Part shown: positions 6,610 to 22,528 of the stretch, one piece after another
How the letters are laid out: the number at the start of each line of letters is the position of its first letter
How positions within the stretch are numbered: position 1 is the stretch's first letter
DNA from: a virus
Strand: one strand, 5' to 3'
IMG/VR virus record: IMGVR_UViG_3300021960_000389
Coordinates: 1-27,964 of that record
DNA length: 27,964 nucleotides
Translations under genes and position numbers: made by a program
The notes under the pieces: generated by a model
Databases searched by the model: none
What the model was told of the DNA's origin: nothing
The model's input: the letters and a program-made list of their open reading frames with translations, nothing else

Positions 6610-8367
6610 ATGGAAGAAAATAAAGTAATGTCTAAAATACCTGAAGTAAGGGCAACCCGTATCTTAGAAGACTACGAAGGGTTCAACAATTACATATTGG
6701 GTCTAAAGAAAAAAATGCAAGTCAAAAAGCATTTTAAGATGACTCGTGCTCAGGCAGATTACATTATTGACTTCCACGATGTCACCCCAAAGGTGGCAAG
6801 AAAATGGGTAGAGTTGGACGAATATTTTGGTAAAAAAATGATGGAAGAAAAACTTCTTACCAAAAGACCGACACAAATATACGTAGAAAAAATCTTAGTA
6901 GAAAAAGATAAATCATTTCATATCTACGGAAAGTTATTTGAGACCGAAGAATTGTACGACTTTTGGTTACCTAAAGCGGCAGTGATTCAAAACAGAGAAA
7001 GAAAAGTGGAAATTGATTACACTAAGTATTCTCATCGTCCACCACTCGAACATCAGAAACTCGCTATTGAAAAGTTGGTAGGTAATGACAAATACATCTT
7101 AGCGGATGATATGGGATTGGGTAAGACCACAGCAACGGTGATTGGTGCATTGGAAGCTAAAGCCAATAAAGTATTGATTATTTGTCCTGCATCTTTGAAA
7201 ATTAACTGGCAACGTGAGATTGCCAATTACACAGATAAAGAGGTATCAATCATCGAAGGTAAGAAGTGGGAACCAAAAGATTTTACCATTATCAACTTTG
7301 ATATCTTAAAGAACTTCCACGACTTAAAGAAAGTAAAAGAGTCTTTGGTATTAAAGGAAGAATTTGATTTGGTTATTATAGATGAAGCTCATTACATCCA
7401 AAACAAACAAGCTCAGAGAACAAAGATTGCAAACGACATATGTAAGAAAGTTGGAAAGGTATGGTTACTAACGGGTACACCAATGACCTCACGACCAATT
7501 AACTATTTCAACCTATTAGATTTGGTAGACTCACCAATCGCTTATAATTGGATGGCTTATGCAATCCGTTATTGTGAAGGTTACCAATTCAATGTTGGTA
7601 ACAGAAAGGTATGGAATGTCAACGGGGCATCTAACCTAACAGAATTAAGAGACAGAACAAAAACACACGTACTAAGAAGACTAAAACAGGATATATTAGA
7701 TTTACCTGAAAAAATTCTCACACCCGTTTATCTAAGATTAAAGTCAAAACAATACGAAGCACTTATGGGTGAATACTTCGATTGGTATGACAACAACTCC
7801 GAGGAGTCATCCTCATTAACCGTGCAGTTCTCAAAACTGATGAAAGTAAGACAGGTCATTGCCGAAGAGAAGGTAAAAGACACCATTGAGATTGCAGAAA
7901 ATATTATTGAACAGGGAAAAAAAGTTATTATCTTCACCAACTTTACCGATACATTAAACCAAATTAAATCACATTTTGGAAAGTCCGCCGTCGCATTGGA
8001 CGGAAGGATGAGTAAACCCGCAAGACAAAACTCTGTGGATGAATTCCAAAACAATGAAAAGGTAATGGTATTTGTTGGTAACCTCAAAGCCGCAGGTGTG
8101 GGAATCACACTGACCGCAGCAGAAGCCGTTATTATGAATGACCTCTCGTTCGTCCCTTCTGACCACTCACAGGCAGAAGACCGAGCATATAGATATGGAC
8201 AGAAATCAAACGTATCTGTCTTTTATCCAATTTTTGAAAATACAATTGAAGGTGTTATTTACGATATATTATCCAATAAAAAAAATGTATTTGAAACAGT
8301 TATGGGTGATAATATAGACAGAGGGACGGTTGTAGAGGAAATATTGAATACAATTTCAAGAAGGTAG
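6610..8367 (+). CDS. SNF2-family DNA helicase/translocase
   Basis: A 585-residue superfamily 2 ATPase of the SNF2 type. Motif I (Walker A) is LADDMGLGKTT at residues 164-174, motif Ia ICPASLKINW (191-200), motif II DEAH (258-261), motif III LLTGTP (286-291), motif V around KAAGVGITLT (493-502) and motif VI QAEDRAYRYGQ (521-531). 'DDMGLGKT' and 'QAEDRAYRYGQ' are diagnostic for SNF2 proteins, with resemblance to the compact SMARCAL1-like group. The N-terminal 140 residues may bind DNA. It may remodel replication forks or recombination intermediates, a role T4 gives to UvsW (a different SF2 subfamily). No TATTTATA motif precedes it; a sigma70-like promoter does. An in-frame ATG at 6628 is an alternative start. 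Confidence 0.9.
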   Translation: MEENKVMSKIPEVRATRILEDYEGFNNYILGLKKKMQVKKHFKMTRAQADYIIDFHDVTPKVARKWVELDEYFGKKMMEEKLLTKRPTQIYVEKILVEKDKSFHIYGKLFETEELYDFWLPKAAVIQNRERKVEIDYTKYSHRPPLEHQKLAIEKLVGNDKYILADDMGLGKTTATVIGALEAKANKVLIICPASLKINWQREIANYTDKEVSIIEGKKWEPKDFTIINFDILKNFHDLKKVKESLVLKEEFDLVIIDEAHYIQNKQAQRTKIANDICKKVGKVWLLTGTPMTSRPINYFNLLDLVDSPIAYNWMAYAIRYCEGYQFNVGNRKVWNVNGASNLTELRDRTKTHVLRRLKQDILDLPEKILTPVYLRLKSKQYEALMGEYFDWYDNNSEESSSLTVQFSKLMKVRQVIAEEKVKDTIEIAENIIEQGKKVIIFTNFTDTLNQIKSHFGKSAVALDGRMSKPARQNSVDEFQNNEKVMVFVGNLKAAGVGITLTAAEAVIMNDLSFVPSDHSQAEDRAYRYGQKSNVSVFYPIFENTIEGVIYDILSNKKNVFETVMGDNIDRGTVVEEILNTISRR

Positions 8368-8388: not shown

Positions 8389-8396
8389 TATTTATA
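8389..8396 (+). promoter_or_regulatory. Late-promoter-like octamer TATTTATA before the SOD-fusion gene
   Basis: TATTTATA followed by AGAAAATGAAAACGT lies 15 nt before the ATG at 8412, in the 44-bp gap after the helicase gene. It suggests this gene is expressed late with virion proteins rather than with the helicase. Confidence 0.6.
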
Positions 8397-8411: not shown

Positions 8412-9953
8412 ATGGAATTCAAAAAAAGCCAAGAAAGAATCCATGAGATAGAAAAACAAATCTCAGGTTCTGAAAGAAAAGAAATAATTCAAGAAAACAA
8501 AAAAGACGTGAAAAGAATATCGGCAATTAAGTTACCGTATTCATATTCTTCACTAAGCCGTTTTGTGGACAAAGAAACAATGAACGTTCACTATAACCAA
8601 CATTACAAAGGTTATCTTAAAAAACTCAACAAAGCTTTAGAATCGGTAAAAGATAAGGATATGGACCTTGAACTACTCATTAAAGGTATTTCAAGATACA
8701 ATAGAACAATCAAAAACAACGCTGGTGGTGCTTACAACCACGAATTGTTTTGGCAAATGTTATCACCAAAAAAACAAGAACCTAATGGACCTGTTTTTGA
8801 TAAGATTAAAAAACAATATAAAACATTATCCAACTTCAAAAAAGAATTTAAGAAAAAAGCAGTTTCACAATTTGGTTCAGGATGGGTATGGTTAGTCCTT
8901 AATAAGAATGGTAGTATTAAAATTATGACCACTTCAAATCAGGACAACCCACTTATGAACACAATGAAAAATGGTGGAATTCCTTTATTAGGGTTGGATT
9001 TGTGGGAACACGCCTATTACTTAAAATATAAAAATAGAAGAGACCAATATGTTGATAATTTCTTTGAGGTTATTAACTGGTCGTTCGTTAACAAACAATT
9101 TGACCAATATCAAAAAGGTAAGATAAACGAATCTAAGGTGGTGAAATCATTAATTACTGAAGGTACATCAAGAGGATGTTCACCAAAACAGGTAAACACT
9201 TATAGAATGATTTTTAACAGAAACCCTCAGGTTAAGAAGAAGTTTATGTATGCAATTATGGATATCTTAAAAGAAGTATATTCTGAATTCCATTATGGGA
9301 AGAACGAATATGCACCTGGACAGATGTCGGGTATCTATGATTTTGAACAACCTGGTCGTTCAGTAATCAACAAATTAAATACCAACTACTCAGCATTCTG
9401 TATATTAGTTAATGACTTAAATGCGGTATTAAAACACTACGGTCAGGACCCACTGAACTTTATTGGTGGTAACAATCAACAACAACTTAAAGAGACTGAT
9501 AGAATGATACAACTTATGATACAATTCAGACACCGTATATTCAATCAGGATTCCGCAACATTCCAAACAATTATGGCTTCATTAGATAGGTCAAACAAGT
9601 TTGGTGATGAAAGAGAATTGAAAGCTGTTGTCAATATGAAGGATATCTTTAATACAAAGAAGGTGTTCAAAGTAGGTGAATTAGGGGGTAAAGACGACAT
9701 GATTGGTGGTATTGATGCAACGGTTGAAATTGACGGTCAAAACAAAACCATTCAAATTAAACCCTTCAACGGTTACGAAGAAGAAGACGGTAGAATGGTA
9801 GTGTTCGGTACAGGTAACGTAAAACCTTACAAAACAGACTACATTGCTTTCCATAATGACTCTAAAGGTACTATCGTATTTGCAAACGATAATACTGAAA
9901 TCAAAAATGGTAGGTTTACGTTCCCTGTGGATAGTTGGGTCAATCCTAAATAA
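8412..9953 (+). CDS. Mn-type superoxide dismutase fused to a putative PD-(D/E)XK nuclease-like domain
   Basis: A 513-residue two-part protein. Residues about 38-228 are a complete Fe/Mn superoxide dismutase. Metal ligands H60 (NVHYNQHY), H110 (AYNHELFW), D196 and H200 (LDLWEHAYY) are all present, as is the second-shell Tyr Y68. Gly at 106 and Gln at 177 (SNQDNPL) match the Mn-SOD signature rather than Fe-SOD. A linker (about 229-260) contains SLITEG, an I-x-E/G site like those cut by T4 prohead protease gp21. The C-terminal part has a helix GDERELKAVVNMKDIF, D435 after GGI, and Q448-I-K450, followed by a strand YKTDYIAFHND; this resembles a PD-(D/E)XK nuclease core with QxK in motif III. SOD detoxifies superoxide; the C-terminal function is inferred. 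A TATTTATA motif 15 nt upstream groups it with late genes, directly before the gp13-like neck gene. SOD part certain (0.95), nuclease part about 0.5. Confidence 0.85.
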   Translation: MEFKKSQERIHEIEKQISGSERKEIIQENKKDVKRISAIKLPYSYSSLSRFVDKETMNVHYNQHYKGYLKKLNKALESVKDKDMDLELLIKGISRYNRTIKNNAGGAYNHELFWQMLSPKKQEPNGPVFDKIKKQYKTLSNFKKEFKKKAVSQFGSGWVWLVLNKNGSIKIMTTSNQDNPLMNTMKNGGIPLLGLDLWEHAYYLKYKNRRDQYVDNFFEVINWSFVNKQFDQYQKGKINESKVVKSLITEGTSRGCSPKQVNTYRMIFNRNPQVKKKFMYAIMDILKEVYSEFHYGKNEYAPGQMSGIYDFEQPGRSVINKLNTNYSAFCILVNDLNAVLKHYGQDPLNFIGGNNQQQLKETDRMIQLMIQFRHRIFNQDSATFQTIMASLDRSNKFGDERELKAVVNMKDIFNTKKVFKVGELGGKDDMIGGIDATVEIDGQNKTIQIKPFNGYEEEDGRMVVFGTGNVKPYKTDYIAFHNDSKGTIVFANDNTEIKNGRFTFPVDSWVNPK

Positions 9954-9968
9954 ATCGTCTTTACTGGA

Positions 9969-9976
9969 TATTTATA
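9969..9976 (+). promoter_or_regulatory. Late-promoter-like octamer TATTTATA before gp13-like gene
   Basis: TATTTATA ends 14 nt before the ATG at 9991. Here it extends to the 12-bp palindrome TATTTATAAATA (9969-9980), so this site alone also reads as the canonical T4 late promoter TATAAATA in the sense direction. Confidence 0.6.
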
Positions 9977-9990
9977 AATAAAAGTCTGCG

Positions 9991-11103
9991 ATGTCGATTA
10001 TTATAGAACCACAAAGAACCAAACTTTATACGAGAATTCGTCACTTACTCGGTGCACCTCTTAGAGGTATTGAGATTGAGGATGAAATGATGGATTCACT
10101 ATTGGAGTTATCCGTTGAAGACTATTCTCAATATGTGAATGATTGGTTAATTGAATCACAATGGACATCTTTATATGGTCTTAATCAAGATACACAATCC
10201 GTAGCTAAAGCACTTATCACACGTTCTTTAGATTGGGAAACACAATACACTTACGCATATTCTAAGATTGTCGGTTTACAGACAGGTGGTGATGCTGTTC
10301 TTAAAAAGGACTACATCAACCTACAAAGAAACCAACAAATTTATGAAATCCCTGCAGGTCGTGAACTTAATGAATTATTATGGTTCACAAGAGCAGAATT
10401 AGACGCAGCGTTCTTCGACCCATTCATGGGTGGTTTCGGAGGATTTGGTGGTATTGGTCTTGGTGGTGGTGCAGGTTTCTCACAAATGGGAGGTCAAGGA
10501 AACTACTTCGTAACACCGGCATTTGATATCTTATTAAGAATGCAAGACATCAATATTAAAAGAAGACTTATTGGTGGTGAACTTACTTATAGAGTAACCG
10601 CACTTCCTGAAGGTAAAAAGGCCGTTCACCTTTATAATGTACCTGGTGGTAAGTTTGATTTTGGTAATATTGCAAACAACGAATACAAAGTATGGTATTG
10701 GTACTATGAAACAGATGACAGAGAATCATGTCTCGCCGAAAATCCCGATATTGTTCGTTTACCTTCAGACGTAAACATGGACAACCTTAGATGGGATGAA
10801 CTTAACTCACCAGCACAAACGTGGGTTCGTAGATGGTTTACCGCATATGTTAAAGAAACATTAGGAAGAGTAAGAGGTAAATTCAGTGGTAATCTAAAGA
10901 CTCCCGATTCTGAACTTCAATTGGAATATGATTCATTATTAAGTGAATCTAAAGATGAGAAGTCTAAATTAGAAGAGGAGTTAAAAATGAGATTAGAAAG
11001 ACTCCGTCCTGATAAAATGATGGAAGTTAAAGCAAGTCAAGCTGAAAGTTTGAACAAACAATTACAATATAGAGCACTTCCACGACAGATATACATTATC
11101 TAA
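9991..11103 (+). CDS. Neck protein, gp13-like
   Basis: A 370-residue protein matching T4 gp13, part of the neck/connector that closes the filled head and receives the tail. The N-terminus, TRIRHLLGAPLRGIEIEDEM followed by MDSLLELSVEDYSQYV, parallels T4 gp13 ([23 protein letters not shown]...EYH). The C-terminal region, QTWVRRWFTAYVKETLGRVR then GKFSGNLKTPDSELQLEYDS and a charged helix, parallels T4 (NNRWVKDYATALAKELNG...GQRLIEEARLEKEALREEL). Residues 146-170 are a Gly/Phe-rich stretch (GGFGGFGGIGLGGG), also seen in shorter form in T4 gp13. Unlike in T4 it is not next to genes 14 and 15, which lie on the other strand 3-5 kb away. The TATTTATA motif 14 nt upstream supports late expression. Confidence 0.8.
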   Translation: MSIIIEPQRTKLYTRIRHLLGAPLRGIEIEDEMMDSLLELSVEDYSQYVNDWLIESQWTSLYGLNQDTQSVAKALITRSLDWETQYTYAYSKIVGLQTGGDAVLKKDYINLQRNQQIYEIPAGRELNELLWFTRAELDAAFFDPFMGGFGGFGGIGLGGGAGFSQMGGQGNYFVTPAFDILLRMQDINIKRRLIGGELTYRVTALPEGKKAVHLYNVPGGKFDFGNIANNEYKVWYWYYETDDRESCLAENPDIVRLPSDVNMDNLRWDELNSPAQTWVRRWFTAYVKETLGRVRGKFSGNLKTPDSELQLEYDSLLSESKDEKSKLEEELKMRLERLRPDKMMEVKASQAESLNKQLQYRALPRQIYII

Positions 11104-11437: not shown

Positions 11438-14165
11438 GTTTTCTATTCTTAGAAACATACTCTTCATCCACTAATTCCATCGTACCGTCTACATACATAT
11501 AGTATGGGTCAATACCTACACTATCCCAAAACTTAATTTCAGTATCTGAGATGGTTAATACCTCCTCTAAGGTATCTTGGTCCCCTTCACGACGAGGATA
11601 ACCCCTCACCAACTCCGTCTGTGTCTTAGTAAAGAATGGACGTTTAGTAGGGTCATCTACTAATATTTCATCACGAATATCTGTTGAGAATACAACCAAC
11701 AAAGGTTCAATACGTTTGTTAAATGACGCTAGATAACGAGGTACATTGTATTCACCTAACATATCAGGTTTTTCAGATATATCTTTTTCATCAATCAAAT
11801 AACAATTCAAGACTACTTCATCTTTTTTCTTTTGTACATCACCGTGAGACTTTCTTTCACCATTATTTACATAGTAGATAGTATCACCCAAACCAACTTG
11901 TAGGTCATGCTTCATAGCCAACTCCATATGAGCTTGACGAGACATAAATGAACCTGATTTGGTTCTTTTTGTGATGTGAACTTTGTATTCGTTAATCGTT
12001 TGTTTAACACGGGCTTTATTAGCAATCTTTGAGATAGGTATCTGACGATTGTAGATGATATCTACATATTCGTAGTAGTACTCTAAGAATTCGTGACCCT
12101 TACCGTCTAACAACATACGAAGACCTTTATCCAAAAATTCAGCAACATAAGTTGGAAGTTTCTTAGACTTAATCGTGTTACCAGTAAGTTTTACTTTACC
12201 TGTGTCTGTTAATAATGCGTAGTTTTTACGTGCCACGTTAATTGTTGCGGGCCATTGACCATCAGTATCGAGACCCATTTCACCTCTCATAAAGATATCG
12301 TTGTACTCAGCAACATCTGCTTCGGAACCGTGATATTCCTTACCCTCAACTACAAGACCATTAATACCTTTACCTATATATGTGTGAGAATCTCTACCAT
12401 CAGGTACTGAGAAGTTCACACCATCCGTATCCATTACGAGTGGTTTGTATCCTCTTTCCATAAACCACATAATCATCTGACGAAGGTATTGACGACCTGT
12501 ACAGGTAATCTGTTCACCCATATCCATATCTCCCCATGGAAATACGTGTGGTGCCGACAAAGAACCGAAGAATGCGTTAATGAAAATCTTAATCGGTAAC
12601 TGTTTACGGTTATATTGTGAAGATAGTTTTTTATCTGTGGAGGCATAATCCGCAGCCAACTTCTTATACTTGATACGAGTATCACGGAAATACTTCAACA
12701 TACTCTTCATCGCACCTGTAACATCACACTTAGGGAACACATCGTGGACCAACTGAATGGATGGGTATAGTGATGAGTAATCGAGTTTTAGTACATCTGT
12801 TGAATAACCCACTGCTAACAAACGTGACAAACCACCTGTAAATGGTCGTTTATCTCCTTTCTGAGGGATTGCAAGTCCGTGTTTGTATGACCACGAAGCC
12901 ATAATCATTTTCCACAGTGTGGCGGTACCCATAGTGGACAGACGTTCATAGGTGGTTGGTACCAACTTAGCAAGTAAGAAGTTAGCTTGATTGTATTCTT
13001 CATCAACTACCATTGTTTCCCAAATATCATCGTATAGATATCTTTCAATGATGTACTTACCATTAACCTCTTCAAATGCACCTGGAAAACGTTCCATTAA
13101 ATTTTCTGTACCAGGTGCTCCAACTTCTTTATATCCACCTGACTTGGGATTAAAGTAGTAGTCCTTATTGTCAAAATAGATTTTACCAATCTTATCACCC
13201 TGAACATACACACGGTTTGGTTTCTCAGCCCCGATAAATTGGGTAATATACTTAAGACCCCAACTCTTAATGTCTGAGTTGATAGCCTGTGCTCTACGAA
13301 CCGCATGGGCAATATCCACAACATTGTAACCCCACATCTGCATCTGAGTGTATTCTTCCATCTCATTTGCCAACTTCAACATCCCGTCCTTTGTTCTAAA
13401 ATTAACTTCAGGATTAAGGGTTTTGATAATCTTCTTTGGGTCCAAACCTAAAATCTCTGCTCTACGAATTAAGAATGGAAAATCGAAGAATGCCGAGTTG
13501 TATCCACCAATAAGTGTTGGTTTGAGGTGATTTACAATATCAAAAAACTCAATGATAAGTTTTCTTTCTTCTTCAGGGTTTTCTGCTGATAATACCTTTT
13601 CATACCCTCTATTGTCTTTCATACCAATGAGGAAGATTTGACTGTCTTCAGGTGAGAGACCTGTGGTCTCGATATCGAATACAAAACGATGAACTTCATC
13701 GTATTCATCAAACCCCTTGAAGAGTCGTTTCCCCTTCTGACATAGATATTGTTCTGTTGGTGGTAGAATCATAATGTCCCCTGAGTTATCTCTATTCCAT
13801 GGGTCTAATCCCCCACCTTTGAAGAAGTTAACTAAGTTTGAGTATGATTTGGTTGTCTTGACTATATATTTCAAACCTTTCTCCATTCTCTCATCACCAT
13901 GAGTGTCTAACTTCTCAATAAGGATACCGTGGGTTGACATTGCTTGTTTCTGAGATGCTTTTGAACCACCATAGAAATTCTTTCCATGAAGGTCTCCCAC
14001 CCATGCAAAAGGAATAAATGAGTCTGATTTGATTTGTTTACCCTGAATAGGGTCTTGAATTACTTTGAATATTTTTCCTGAACGATAGTCGTACTCTAAC
14101 GCAACTATATACTTTTCAGGGTCCTCCCCTAATAGGAATTCTTCGATTACTTCTTGTGATACCAT
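11406..14165 (-). CDS. Family B DNA polymerase, gp43-like, with proofreading exonuclease
   Basis: The replicative DNA polymerase, 919 residues (T4 gp43 has 898). Exonuclease motifs are Exo I FDIETTGL (D164, E166), Exo II GGYNSAFFDFPF (N223, D228) and Exo III RYLYDDIW (Y376, D380). Polymerase motifs are A KLDYSSLYPSI (D462; DxxSLYPS), B KIFINAFFGS (K526, N530, G534) and C LVMDTDGVNFS (D579, D581). All catalytic acids are present, so it should be active in both synthesis and proofreading. Motif B reads NAFFG rather than NSxYG: the usual Tyr is Phe. It is alone on its strand in this part of the window, with a TATAAT element and an inverted repeat upstream and no TATTTATA motif, fitting early or middle expression. 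Its 3' end overlaps the convergent 110-aa gene by 32 bp. Confidence 0.95.
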   Translation of the reverse strand: MVSQEVIEEFLLGEDPEKYIVALEYDYRSGKIFKVIQDPIQGKQIKSDSFIPFAWVGDLHGKNFYGGSKASQKQAMSTHGILIEKLDTHGDERMEKGLKYIVKTTKSYSNLVNFFKGGGLDPWNRDNSGDIMILPPTEQYLCQKGKRLFKGFDEYDEVHRFVFDIETTGLSPEDSQIFLIGMKDNRGYEKVLSAENPEEERKLIIEFFDIVNHLKPTLIGGYNSAFFDFPFLIRRAEILGLDPKKIIKTLNPEVNFRTKDGMLKLANEMEEYTQMQMWGYNVVDIAHAVRRAQAINSDIKSWGLKYITQFIGAEKPNRVYVQGDKIGKIYFDNKDYYFNPKSGGYKEVGAPGTENLMERFPGAFEEVNGKYIIERYLYDDIWETMVVDEEYNQANFLLAKLVPTTYERLSTMGTATLWKMIMASWSYKHGLAIPQKGDKRPFTGGLSRLLAVGYSTDVLKLDYSSLYPSIQLVHDVFPKCDVTGAMKSMLKYFRDTRIKYKKLAADYASTDKKLSSQYNRKQLPIKIFINAFFGSLSAPHVFPWGDMDMGEQITCTGRQYLRQMIMWFMERGYKPLVMDTDGVNFSVPDGRDSHTYIGKGINGLVVEGKEYHGSEADVAEYNDIFMRGEMGLDTDGQWPATINVARKNYALLTDTGKVKLTGNTIKSKKLPTYVAEFLDKGLRMLLDGKGHEFLEYYYEYVDIIYNRQIPISKIANKARVKQTINEYKVHITKRTKSGSFMSRQAHMELAMKHDLQVGLGDTIYYVNNGERKSHGDVQKKKDEVVLNCYLIDEKDISEKPDMLGEYNVPRYLASFNKRIEPLLVVFSTDIRDEILVDDPTKRPFFTKTQTELVRGYPRREGDQDTLEEVLTISDTEIKFWDSVGIDPYYMYVDGTMELVDEEYVSKNRKLMSSLTHQTT

Positions 14166-15111: not shown

Positions 15112-18100
15112 TTACGTCAAACATGAAGAACATACGTTATATGGTCCTGCCGACATTGTTATATTTACTGTTCCAGGAGATTCGTTAACAACTAAGTAAC
15201 AGAAACCGTCGGTATCTTTAATATATTCGGACGAAACCGCACTCAAAGTATTATATGCCCTATAGATTATAGATGTGTCAATATTACAATTTACCGATGG
15301 GTCAATAATCCTTCTTAATTGCCATACTGACGAAGATACAACACTAGAAGAAGGTGTTGGACTAACACTTATAGAAGGTGTAACTGTAGTTGTTACCGAT
15401 GGAGTTGGTGTTGGTGTGGGTGTTATACAATCATCCGCAAAATAACCTGAAACTCCACCTCCATTATTTTGGAAAATATTTCTTAGTGTTACAAAACTTG
15501 GTTTAGTTAAAACCGGTGCGAAATAAGAATTAAATAGGTTGTAACCTAAAATATTATTAGTTTGAATTCCTGATGGAGTTCTCATATTATCATTCCATTC
15601 TGGAGATAATGACCCACCATCCCAAAACTCGGACATTTCCCACATACCGAAGTTTAATAAGTACATATACTCTTTATACGCCACTTGAGCTTGACCGGTA
15701 TCCCCACTCCAATCAGGTGCGTAACCACTAGGGTCGTACATACCATTATCAATGGCTTGTTTCATAGATAAGTGTAGGTCAGTCGTTTGCCAATTTGGGT
15801 TTTCTTCCGCCATCCAATTTACCGCAGTTGATGACCCTGGAACTGCACCCATAATACCAAATAAGTGAACGGTATGGAAAATATGTTCAAATACCTCAGA
15901 TATTACAGTATCACCACTTGTGGAACCACTTTGGTACCATACCATATCATTAACTGCGTGGGTATCTAAGAATTCTTGATATCCTGTATATCCTGATATA
16001 CCTTCATCGGTTAACCAATTAGGGTCATAGTCATCTCCACTACCATACCCAATTCTTTGAGCCGTTGGTAACCCCTCGTGTATAGTACCCTCATCACCTC
16101 TTAATGTTGCCACTAAATTATTTTGATATGATAGGGTAATTCCCGTGGCTGATGGGTCCATTATTAATTGGAATGAACGAGCAACTTTTTTAGAGAACTC
16201 ATCAGGTACCGCTGCCTGACCACCAACCGCACCAGCAATGACCTCTAACATACCACTAACGTTAATACTTCTATCGAATACTGCCCCATTACTGGTATCT
16301 GCAGTTAAAGGTCCTGCAACATAACAACTAAGAAGAGCTGCGGCGGATGTTGTCGGTGTTGGGGTTACCGAAGTCGTGATTGAAGGTGTTACTGTTTTAG
16401 TTACTGATGGTGTAGATGTAATGGTTGATGTTGGGGTAATGGTCGGTGTTGAACTAGTACTAATAGAAGGTGTAACGGTAGTTGTTACCGTTGGAGTTGG
16501 TGTTATACTTGGACATGTTATAGTTTCAACACTAATATAAACAATGTCACCAATCACCCATTGTGTTGATGCTGATTGAACTAACTGTATTTGATTATTT
16601 CCATCACCTCTAAAGTAATATCCCGTTCCTTCAGTACCTCCTGTCCATCCTCCGTATGGTAAACCTGCACCTCCGACATCCTCTAACGTTCCGTCATATA
16701 TCGCGGTACTACCATTTTGAGAAATCGTCAAACGAACACAATTACCCACAAAAGACGAATAGTAAGAATCTCTATCTACACCATCCTTATCGATTGCATT
16801 CCAATATATTCCATCCATCTGAGGACCATCATTGAATGAGTTTGGATTAGTAGAACCACTAGCTACACCACCGTTACCATTACTAATAATTGTATTACCT
16901 GAAGTTGGAATCTGATATGGTGTTGATACTAAATTATAACCATAACCTGTTGTCGGTACAGGTGATGATGTTACCGAAGGTGTTATTGATGGTGTTATGG
17001 TATTAGTTGGAGTAACAGTTATTGATGGAGTAGGGGTTACTGTCGATGTAGGTGTATTTGTTGGTGTTGGGGTAGGACATACCCATTGAGATGAAGTGTT
17101 ATTATATAAATTAGTAATTTGTGTTTGTGATAGGGCGGTGTTATAAACCTCAAACGTACCCATTCTACCAACACCATAAGGTTGGCCACTTGTAAAGTTA
17201 GTTTGAGTACCATATGCCAATGCGTAATGTAATTGAGTAGACCCATTATTATATGGTGTTTGTCTGGCAGTTGCAACTGACCCAGCAGGTGAACCATTAA
17301 CATATGCTCTTAAAGTTGTACCATCATAAGTTAAACCTAAGTAATGCCATTGATTTAATGGGGTACTAATAGACGATTGTATTACTGGTGAGGCGGTTGA
17401 ACCAATAGCGTATGGCCACACACTAAAGTAAGCGTTACCTGAAACTATTTGTATCTGAGAATCATACCAACCACTATCAGGAGGAGTTACACTACCTTGT
17501 TCTGAAACAATAACACCATCACCAGTTGGATAGAACCAAGTAAATAATGATATCACTGTTGATGTATTTGCTGGTGATAATTGACTGTTGAGGTCTATAT
17601 CAGTTGTAACATAACCATTCGTTCCATTAAATTGTATTGATTGATAACAATCATTAAAAGATGGTGAATTATAAACCGTACCATCAGAATTACCCTCTAA
17701 ATCAAACACTATAGATGACCCACTATACGATGAAGTATCGTTAAAATCATAATACAGTATTCTACTTGAAGGTACATATGTACTTGAGGATGGTGTTACT
17801 GTTATCGTTGGTGTTATGGTATTAGTCGGCGTTATACTTGGAGTAGGAGTAACACTATTAGTTGGTGTTATGGTATTAGTTGGAGTAACAGTTATTGATG
17901 GAGTAGGTGTTATTGTCGATGTAGGAGTATTTGTAGGTGTTGGTGTAGGTGTTGGTAATGGACCTGTAGACATCAATAAATAATCACCATCATTTGTAAT
18001 TATATTATTTCCTAAATTATCCACTAATAAATTTTGTTGTGGTGGAGTGGCAGAAGGTGTCGGTGTTATTGTACTTGTCGGGGTTGGTGTTGGTGTTGGA

Positions 18101-20415
18101 CAACCAACATTTATAGACCATTTACCTGATAAATAATTTTCAACAACTGTTAATTCACTAACGGTTAATGCTCGACTATATACTAAAACATCAAAGATAA
18201 ATCCATTATAGTAATATTGTTCAACACCTGAAACGGCATTTGAGTATGAAACACCCATAAATACATAATCCGTTAAGGATGATGTTGTGGCACTTATTGG
18301 TGAATTAAATGATAATGTTTGCTCACAACTATCAATTCTAAATTTAAGTCTGTCAGAATTATTAGTCCCCGAACCACTAAACACAGTTGTTAAAATATGT
18401 GTATTACCATCAACACCACCACCAGTGGCACTACCAAATGCCGTTCTAATGTCATATGTACCACCACTCTGTCTTATAAAGACTTCGTCTAATCCTGTAT
18501 TACCGTCTTCACCACCTTGTATGTATTGACCTGTCGATGAAGGACTTAATGATTTTGCAACAACAATAATAGTCTGACCTGTAACCGATTGTAAATCAGT
18601 TAGAGGATTAACACTCAGACCGTCAGTGGTACCATTAAAGTATACAGCACCTAAACCATTCTGAACATTTGACCACCATTCAGGTGCAGGTCCACTACCA
18701 CCACCTATTGGGTTAGCATTATGAGCATTAGCAGATGAATCTTCCCATTGAGTAAACGTGTCCCCACTTGTCGGTGTTGGTGTAAAGTAAGATGATAAAT
18801 CACCTTGATAGTAAATTTCAAGTGTCGGGTCATTGATAGGTATTGGCGGTGTCGATGAAGGTGTAGGTGTGATTGTTACCGATGGAGTAATTGAAACACT
18901 TGGAGTAACTGAAGAAGTAGGTGTAATAGAATTAGTCGGTGTAATAGTTACTGAAGATGTGGGAGTAATAGACACACTAGGAGTTATTGAACTAGTTGGA
19001 GTTATCGTAACTGAAGGAGTAATTGATGGTGTAGGTGTTACTGAACTCGTAGGGGTAATAGAAGTGGTTGGCGTTATCGTAACTGAAGGAGTAATAGAAC
19101 TAGTTGGTGTTATTGTTACTGAAGGTGTTACTGAAGGAGTAGGTGTAATAGAACTAGTTGGAGTTATCGTAACTGAAGGAGTAATTGATGGTGTAGGTGT
19201 AATAGAAATAGTTGGTGTGTTAGTTGGGGTTGGTGTTGGTTGTGGTGGTGCTGGAGTTGGATTACAAATACAATTACCATTTGTGTATGCACCACCTCCA
19301 CAACTTGGGTTTGTATTAACAACACTTAGTGCACAAATTGTGGCACTATCGTATATTCCGACAGTAATCTCCTGATTAAGACCATCGCAATCGACATATG
19401 TAAATGTTGTGCCTGTTGCACAATCCATACCACCATATAAACTCCAAGTATCACAACATGGTGTTGTTGGTGTAACGGATGGTGTCGGTGTAGGCGTTAC
19501 AGTTTGTGTTGGAGTTATACTACTTGTCGGTGTAATTGATAATGTAGGTGTAATTGAACTCGTAGGTGTAATACTTGAAGTTGGCGTAATTGATGGTGTT
19601 GGTGTAGTTGACGGTGTTGTACTTACACTTACACCCGCGGTTACTGACGGAGTAGGTGTTACCGTAACACTTGGTGTAACAGACGGTGTTGAAGTAATTG
19701 TTATACTTGGAGTCGGCGTAATAGTTACTGAAGGTGTAATTGAAGAACTAGGTGTTATACTTGGTGATGGAGTAATTGAAACACTTGGAGTAACTGAAGA
19801 AGTAGGTGTAATAGTTACTGAAGGTGTAACTGAAGATGTGGGTGTAATAGACACACTAGGAGTTACTGATGAAGTGGGTGTTGGGGTAGAATATAGTGTG
19901 TTTGATGGTGTCGGTGTTATAGTGTTTGTGGGTGTAATAGATGGGGTTACAGTTACCGATGGAGTTACTGACGGAGTTACTGAAGGTATAGGGGTTTCTG
20001 AAGGTAAAATTACATCACTATTACCTCTATTTGGTCTACAACATAAATCAGGGATACTTATCGAATCTCTAACGTTTATAAATAATTTTTTTCTTAATGG
20101 TAATGTAATTTCTCCTTGTTCGTTAGAAATTTTAAACTCAGCGATATAACGACCAGGATTACGGGTTTCATGAGATGTTAATTGATAATAAACATAATAC
20201 TCAACTTCAGGACTATCACCTGTAGCCTCTTTTACCATAGTTCTTGCTGCTTTATTTACAACATAGTACCTATTGGTTTCCTCATTCCACATACTAAAAG
20301 TAATAGTCGAGGTGCTCGTTAAGTTATCAAACTCACGAAAATCAACTCTTCCATCTTTTACTACCTGTACCTTTATAATTGGTAGTGTACTATTTTTCCT
20401 TATAAAAAACTCCAT
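15112..20415 (-). CDS. Giant modular adhesin: baseplate anchor, Thr/Pro stalks, LamG-like domains
   Basis: A 1767-residue virion protein built from globular modules separated by Thr/Pro/Ser stalks (TPTPS, TPSVT, TPTSS units). Residues 1-130: BppU-like baseplate anchor, paralogous to the 117-aa protein. 141-319: stalk. 320-386: Cys-rich module (8 Cys). 387-526: stalk. 527-771: LamG/concanavalin-like domain ending in [20 protein letters not shown]. 773-792 and 820-878: stalks around a 27-residue segment with LLVDN and YLLMS. 879-1112: second LamG-like domain ([28 protein letters not shown]). 1113-1156: stalk. 1157-1300: beta-rich module. 1301-1358: stalk. 1359-1663: larger module with a Glu/His cluster (E1507, E1510, H1511, H1514, H1517). 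1664-1690: stalk. 1691-1767: C-terminal module with 4 Cys. Likely function: multivalent binding to host surface glycans. Start overlaps the upstream stop (TAATG). Stalk DNA carries long in-frame direct repeats. Confidence 0.85.
16991..17034 (-). repeat. 44-bp direct repeat, copy A (downstream flank of LamG-2 module)
   Basis: Identical over 44 bp to 17864-17907. The two copies are 873 bp (291 codons) apart in the same frame, and they bracket the second LamG-like module of the giant adhesin. They encode the stalk segment containing [12 protein letters not shown]. Confidence 0.9.
17864..17907 (-). repeat. 44-bp direct repeat, copy B (upstream flank of LamG-2 module)
   Basis: Partner of the copy at 16991-17034, identical by direct reading. 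Recombination between the two would remove 291 codons without shifting the frame. Confidence 0.9.
18838..19257 (-). repeat. Degenerate tandem repeats encoding the second Thr/Pro stalk
   Basis: Encodes residues 387-526 of the adhesin. The DNA is made of short units such as GGTGTAATAG, AACTAGTTGG and ACTGAAGGAGT (plus-strand view) in varied order. It contains a perfect 50-bp direct repeat at 18989-19038 and 19151-19200 (162 bp = 54 codons apart) and one copy (18881-18929) of a 49-bp repeat shared with the first stalk. Confidence 0.9.
19459..19995 (-). repeat. Degenerate tandem repeats encoding the first Thr/Pro stalk
   Basis: Encodes residues 141-319. It includes 19766-19814, identical over 49 bp to 18881-18929. 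The spacing is 885 bp (295 codons), in frame; the pair brackets the Cys-rich module at 19258-19458. Long open frames on the opposite strand here are a by-product of the repeat composition. Confidence 0.9.
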
Positions 20416-22520: not shown

Positions 22521-22528
22521 TATTTATA
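22521..22528 (+). promoter_or_regulatory. Late-promoter-like octamer TATTTATA before the plus-strand operon
   Basis: TATTTATA followed by GTAAAAAAGAATCT, 14 nt before the ATG at 22543. With the minus-strand copy 12 bp away it forms a compact bidirectional promoter. Confidence 0.6.

Follow-up and report, generated by a model that had tools for sequence, protein, structure and literature searches.

The locus described here lies in a 27,964-nucleotide stretch of viral DNA (hereafter the window), a 28-kb fragment of a genome from a large family of T4-like phages represented in environmental samples. It contains an open reading frame with an ATG start and a 513-residue product, in which a superoxide dismutase (SOD) is joined to a nuclease-like half; the existence of this fusion gene, first reported in an earlier note made from the letters of the DNA, is confirmed (Table 1). 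In the gene order of this family, the tail sheath gene and two further genes on one strand are followed on the other strand by an SNF2 helicase, the fusion, a head-tail-adaptor-like gene and a gene for a 110-residue protein, and then by DNA polymerase B. Elsewhere in the window (15112-20415, minus strand) there is a gene for a 1767-residue protein with long, repetitive stretches rich in T, P and S, possibly a tail fibre or an adhesin.

Table 1. Positions in the window of the fusion gene, its predicted parts and its conserved neighbours
Feature	Position	Strand	Basis
Conserved upstream neighbour, SNF2-type helicase	6610..8367	+	Domain matches, synteny
Promoter-like motif TATTTATA, 15 bases before the ATG	8389..8396	+	Enriched upstream of ORFs in a 297-kb relative
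SOD-nuclease fusion gene, entire	8412..9953	+	ORF, ATG start, 513 aa
N-terminal segment, residues 1-28, ending I26-Q27-E28; candidate propeptide and cleavage site	8412..8495	+	[IL]xE, weak
Fe/Mn superoxide dismutase domain, residues 39-232	8526..9107	+	Pfam, PDB sequences, fold Z 24, invariant residues
Linker, residues 237-257	9120..9182	+	Low model confidence; residues 236-251 with pLDDT <50
First linker candidate site, I238-N239-E240/S241	9123..9134	+	E240 in at least 90% of 25 rows
Second linker candidate site, I248-T249-E250/G251 (proposed in the earlier note)	9153..9164	+	E250 invariant in 25 rows
C-terminal half, residues 255-513: helical domain ~258-391, PD-(D/E)XK-like core ~392-513	9174..9950	+	AlphaFold, Foldseek, VIA-align
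Putative nuclease active site, E402, D435, Q448-I449-K450	9615..9761	+	Invariant in 25 rows; kept in a relative from a 735-kb phage
Conserved downstream neighbour, head-tail-adaptor-like	9991..11103	+	PHROG 211 over residues 273-336 only, E 2.7e-10; synteny

The first domain is, judged by its sequence, an Fe/Mn SOD whose active-site residues are intact and whose activity is predicted. Both Pfam models of the family matched it above their curated cut-offs (Sod_Fe_N, 2e-19, 70 bits; Sod_Fe_C, 4e-39, 133 bits), the Staphylococcus aureus SOD 5n56 matched the fusion protein at 1.3e-55 in a search of PDB sequences, and comparison of the domain fold with SOD structures gave a Z of 24. The four metal ligands (H60, H110, D196 and H200) and the Gly106/Gln177 pair are where the earlier note had placed them, and all six are invariant among 12 aligned homologues sharing 64-91% identity with the window protein; together with the Pfam and 5n56 matches, these residues argue for a Mn-type-looking enzyme, as had been proposed. 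A member of the glutathione peroxidase family (Pfam E 2.5e-14) is encoded in genome G001, a 297-kb relative (13155-13664, minus strand), and could dispose of the peroxide made by an SOD. It was rejected as a regular partner of the SOD, as it was found in only one of nine relatives, and was dropped as a propeptide case because its ITES motif lies inside the peroxidase domain itself.

The C-terminal half has the GDERE segment, D435 and Q448-I-K450 described previously, and E402, D435, Q448 and K450 are invariant across 25 diverse members of the family. In an AlphaFold model of this half built from 24 sequences, the row of a 735-kb phage being omitted (mean pLDDT 89), D435 and Q448/K450 lie on neighbouring strands and E402 in the preceding helix. 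The top Foldseek match of the model was the PD-(D/E)XK homing endonuclease I-Ssp6803I (E 3.3e-3, probability 1.0), and archaeal Hjc came next; VIA-align returned Z 8.0 for Hjc over 104 residues (12% identity), 7.9 for I-Ssp6803I and at least 7 for Eco15I, NhoI and SPARDA DREN, where a Z near 8 is not decisive by the program's own note and the top rows belong to one superfamily. That is, almost all fold matches fall in the PD-(D/E)XK superfamily, but at a Z of about 8, and the second helix typical of the fold does not show in the model, in which the strands come directly. The earlier assignment of a PD-(D/E)XK-like core is therefore borne out by the structural matches and by the invariant D-QxK residues, although not in that helix, and the modelled residues ~392-513 very probably form a nuclease core of this superfamily, preceded by a helical domain to which no family is assigned. 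Pfam nuclease families matched none of 24 members at E values up to 5, the C-terminal half gave chance-level matches only against Pfam and PHROGs, and a sequence-profile search of the PDB with it returned no match; a suspected resemblance to Mrr-cat was likewise not borne out by Pfam. Divergent PD-(D/E)XK members are often missed by curated family models.

Related nuclease domains also occur in other proteins. Genome G001 encodes a 383-residue paralogue of the nuclease half (287530-288681, minus strand) with its own N-terminal IQES...LMSE segment and a TATTTATA motif, and in locus L093 (434-1915, minus strand), and similarly in L084, a protein of 492-493 residues with a CxxC zinc-ribbon-like segment has a C-terminal domain that resembles the nuclease half of the fusion (GGVDVTIDGVNYQIKP), two genes off and on the opposite strand. 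The uncharacterised BFVD entry A0A8D9CCA0 (1113 residues, uncultured marine phage) matches the nuclease half with a TM-score of 0.81, and therefore another domain arrangement may exist.

A first scan of IMG/VR returned 20 loci. In 19 of them the match covers the whole fusion or the greater part of it, at 62-99% identity; the remaining one ends at a contig edge. Each profile scan with the C-terminal half gave more than 400 matching stretches, and the best 80 per scan were retained. Among the nearest relatives so obtained are 105 distinct ones whose 5' side can be read, 81 of them SOD-fused and 24 with the nuclease half but no SOD, SOD-only orthologues at the locus being outside the reach of this query. 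The neighbours are constant across 34 loci, as far as the contigs extend, and among relatives down to ~40-60% identity. Hence, the search of phage genomes for the same fusion that the earlier note had suggested was successful, and its description of the architecture as unusual gives way to that of a widespread, syntenic gene. The phage collection searched yielded no cultured member of the fusion family. In bacterial and archaeal genomes, profile A5 gave 35 pattern matches and no relative, so that this search points to no cellular origin of the nuclease half. The uncultured Caudovirales phage protein A0A6J5L953 (501 residues), annotated as 'superoxide dismutase' only, was compared by model; it appears to be the same fusion, because the model of its second half matches (TM-score 0.88, 38% identity). 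The 735-kb phage LR756501 encodes a stand-alone protein of 290 residues that corresponds to the whole C-terminal half and keeps the E, D and QxK residues; it is 24% identical to the fusion, which it differs from in having neither SOD nor (I/L)xE linker site, and an IMG/VR search with this protein alone found no relative.

In one SOD-less member (L100), an apparent SOD start (INEMKKIEIEKL) runs straight into the linker (KSIISEG), and the tree places this member as sister to a SOD-fused one (support 99/83); the SOD was thus lost there. The remaining SOD-less rows form one clade of 21 rows, for which the very long outgroup branch leaves the direction of change unreadable. Since the SOD is absent or lost where the nuclease stays, it is the nuclease half that forms the gene's constant part. 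These patterns bear on two alternative origins. The gene could be a moron-type auxiliary gene, in which the SOD brings the benefit and the nuclease half is a passenger or degenerate domain, and stand-alone SODs do occur in unrelated jumbo phages; yet the nuclease half persists without SOD in the 24 relatives, its putative catalytic residues are invariant and the locus is syntenic throughout, and we accord this view little probability. Alternatively, a homing endonuclease may have invaded an SOD gene, as the best Foldseek match, I-Ssp6803I, might suggest. In place of the varying sites, introns or inteins that mark the mobility of homing endonucleases, the same neighbours and a fixed position were seen in 34 of 34 loci despite the divergence of the relatives, the fusion has its own conserved upstream motif, and it is the SOD, not the nuclease, that comes and goes; such an invasion is very unlikely indeed.

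The two domains are joined by a linker that carries two candidate protease sites, one of them the I248-T249-E250/G251 site of the earlier note, present as described and with E250 invariant in 25 members. (I/L)xE is the motif of the T4 protease class, and gp21 cleaves it before A/G/S, a pattern that the window protein fits with ITE|G and INE|S. A single [IL]xE[AGS] match is no evidence, because at the rate found in a 297-kb relative (~0.0019 per residue) about one per 513-residue protein is expected by chance. Across 42 non-redundant fusions, [IL]xE occurs in the linker of all 42 versus 18.1 expected from within-segment shuffles, a comparison of related sequences rather than independent trials, and before the SOD in 41 versus 33.5 expected, hardly above chance. 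Of the two regions, it is only in the linker that the excess is convincing, within the limit set by the kinship of the sequences. The P1' residue of the linker site is G in most SOD-fused proteins, Q in one clade, and S, T or K in SOD-less members; at the N-terminal candidate site it is mostly M. The linker motif is absent in 4 of 25 SOD-less relatives. The proposal of a prohead-protease-like site between the domains is hence supported by the excess of the motif but loosened at P1', which is not strictly A/G/S, and the further proposal of a cut into an SOD half and a nuclease half has to allow for the second candidate region, before the SOD, and hence for an SOD that may be excised instead.

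The conserved linker also bears on the possibility that the protein is an uncut and unpackaged two-domain late enzyme, that is, a nuclease of the Holliday-junction-resolvase type, active in recombination or packaging together with the SNF2 helicase, the SOD shielding the site of DNA processing. The resemblance of the fold to Hjc (Z 8.0) and the helicase as constant neighbour are in its favour, as is the result of a RuvC search, which gave no match in nine long relatives, the control being positive. Endonuclease VII was likewise not found, but as control genomes gave no match to it either, this result carries no weight. However, a resolvase-type enzyme of this kind leaves the (I/L)xE linker unexplained, some members have lost the SOD while the nuclease stays, the same phages have nuclease-domain paralogues, and junction cutting does not follow from similarity of fold alone; we consider this explanation somewhat unlikely.

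Upstream of the fusion, TATTTATA is probably a promoter motif of this phage group, as suggested by its distribution. It lies no more than 45 bases upstream of 46 ORFs in the 297-kb relative versus 1.8 expected, at a distance of ~15 bases from the start codon, and these ORFs include the tail sheath, the protease and the fusion; of 84 SOD-fusion genes, 81 have the string TATTTAT no farther than 120 bases away, in most cases 20-28 bases ahead of the start. In the window, TATTTATA occurs at 8389-8396, 9969-9976 and 22521-22528 and precedes the sheath, fusion and adaptor-like genes, not those of the polymerase or helicase. We infer that it may be a late promoter.

The relatives supply the context of head assembly that a 28-kb fragment without a protease gene does not. 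A gene for a gp21-type prohead protease is present in seven of the nine long relatives, among them the one whose fusion is 91% identical to that of the window (G003), and the other two gave no protease match; a T4-type gp23 capsid protein is encoded in eight of the nine. The presumed propeptides of the capsid proteins end in INE|A in all seven that were read and hold further (I/L)xE motifs. In the 297-kb relative, 5.8% of ORFs have [IL][TNS]E[SAGNQ] among their first 30 residues versus 1.9% of internal 30-residue windows, and a profile of the linker gave weak matches in its proteome, the best besides the fusion itself being an N-terminus, LTESDLVRIINRVINEG. Several proteins of genome G001 (e.g., 290279-290563, 231438-232598 and 286254-286643) start with the related segments MKKNVTLTESDLVRIINRVINEG, MAKKIIRLTESDIQKIVRNILNEQ and MKKIIKLTESELKSLIKRIVTEN, and it is possible that N-terminal segments of this type are capsid-targeting propeptides. 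The internal proteins of T4 carry a short targeting propeptide at the N-terminus, which is removed by gp21 (PMC5694885; PMC3012670); such propeptides are 10-20 residues long (PMC5694885). The N-terminal segment of the fusion, at ~28-45 residues, is longer than these, and the site within it is weakly supported.

The same material could be read as a protein that is packaged but remains uncut, or is cut at its N-terminus only, with SOD and nuclease staying joined and the linker motif kept for another purpose, e.g., scaffold binding. This reading shares the support for a packaged and cleaved protein, minus the cleavage step, and the linker motif does resemble the N-terminal LTES...INE segments of other proteins of the 297-kb relative, which could be targeting rather than cleavage signals; but proteases of the T4 class have (I/L)xE as their known motif and the capsid proteins of the relatives carry it, and we consider this reading distinctly unlikely.

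Hence, we favor, at a probability of about 0.5, the explanation that the fusion is a packaged, gp21-cleaved SOD-nuclease polyprotein of T4-like, often jumbo, phages, an interpretation drawn from sequences and predicted structure. Under this explanation, a probably late-expressed single chain, made up of a short N-terminal segment, a Mn-type SOD, the linker, and a helical domain with a PD-(D/E)XK nuclease, would enter the prohead in the manner of T4 internal proteins. The gp21-type protease of the phage would then cut after (I/L)xE and set free an SOD and a nuclease, which would travel with the DNA into the next host. There, the nuclease may act on DNA, be it the host chromosome, rival DNA or recombination intermediates, and the SOD may limit harm from superoxide, either inside the head or in the cell just infected. 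The fuller proposition, namely that SOD and nuclease are packed together, separated in the head by the prohead protease and injected as an antioxidant and a nuclease at infection, and that similar N-terminal segments elsewhere mark a wider set of effectors, is more tentative, and we place it a little short of even odds. The interpretation in the earlier note is partly supported, as regards packaging indirectly: its outline is strengthened, and its details are corrected with respect to the conserved family, the looser P1', the possible further site ahead of the SOD and the constancy of the nuclease half.

Phage SODs are usually classed as auxiliary metabolic genes. The present one is joined to a nuclease-like half and adjoins head-protease motifs, within a syntenic gene that is kept across phages differing by about half in sequence. 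If packaged, the fusion would be a dual-cargo internal protein, what oxidative stress does as infection begins could be tested directly, and a sequence handle would be at hand for predicting the injected proteins of uncultured jumbo phages. We found no earlier description of an SOD-nuclease fusion in the open-access literature, subscription papers lying outside the scope of the search.

The fusion can be set beside two kinds of protein already known, the phage SOD and the T4-type internal head protein. Its likeness to S. aureus SodA and the Clostridioides difficile SOD is one of fold (Z 24), with 37-39% identity in structural alignment; all metal ligands and the Mn-type Gly/Gln pair are common to it and the bacterial Fe/Mn SODs, to which it adds an N-terminal extension of ~38 residues and the nuclease-like half. 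Phage-encoded Fe/Mn SOD homologues are known from Pseudomonas phage PA5oct, whose homologue carries an 'ESI-MS/MS' flag in its database record, and Vibrio phage 2.275.O (genomes of ~290-350 kb), but these share only ~27-29% identity with the fusion and are single-domain proteins of ~180-190 residues without the nuclease half. Among giant eukaryotic viruses, SOD is found among the virion proteins (PMC9405923). The best fold matches of residues ~392-513, i.e., I-Ssp6803I, archaeal Hjc and SPARDA DREN, include in DREN a nuclease that, like the fusion, has D and QxK as active residues (D41, Q60 and K62; PMC12205087), although identity to the three is low (8-19%), Z is only ~8, and the fusion has an extra helical domain and no visible second helix of the usual kind. 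With the internal head proteins of T4 and Alt, the fusion has in common the (I/L)xE motif and a short N-terminal extension, and its relatives the T4-type capsid protein and protease; it differs from them in combining two enzyme domains in one chain and in a less strict P1'.
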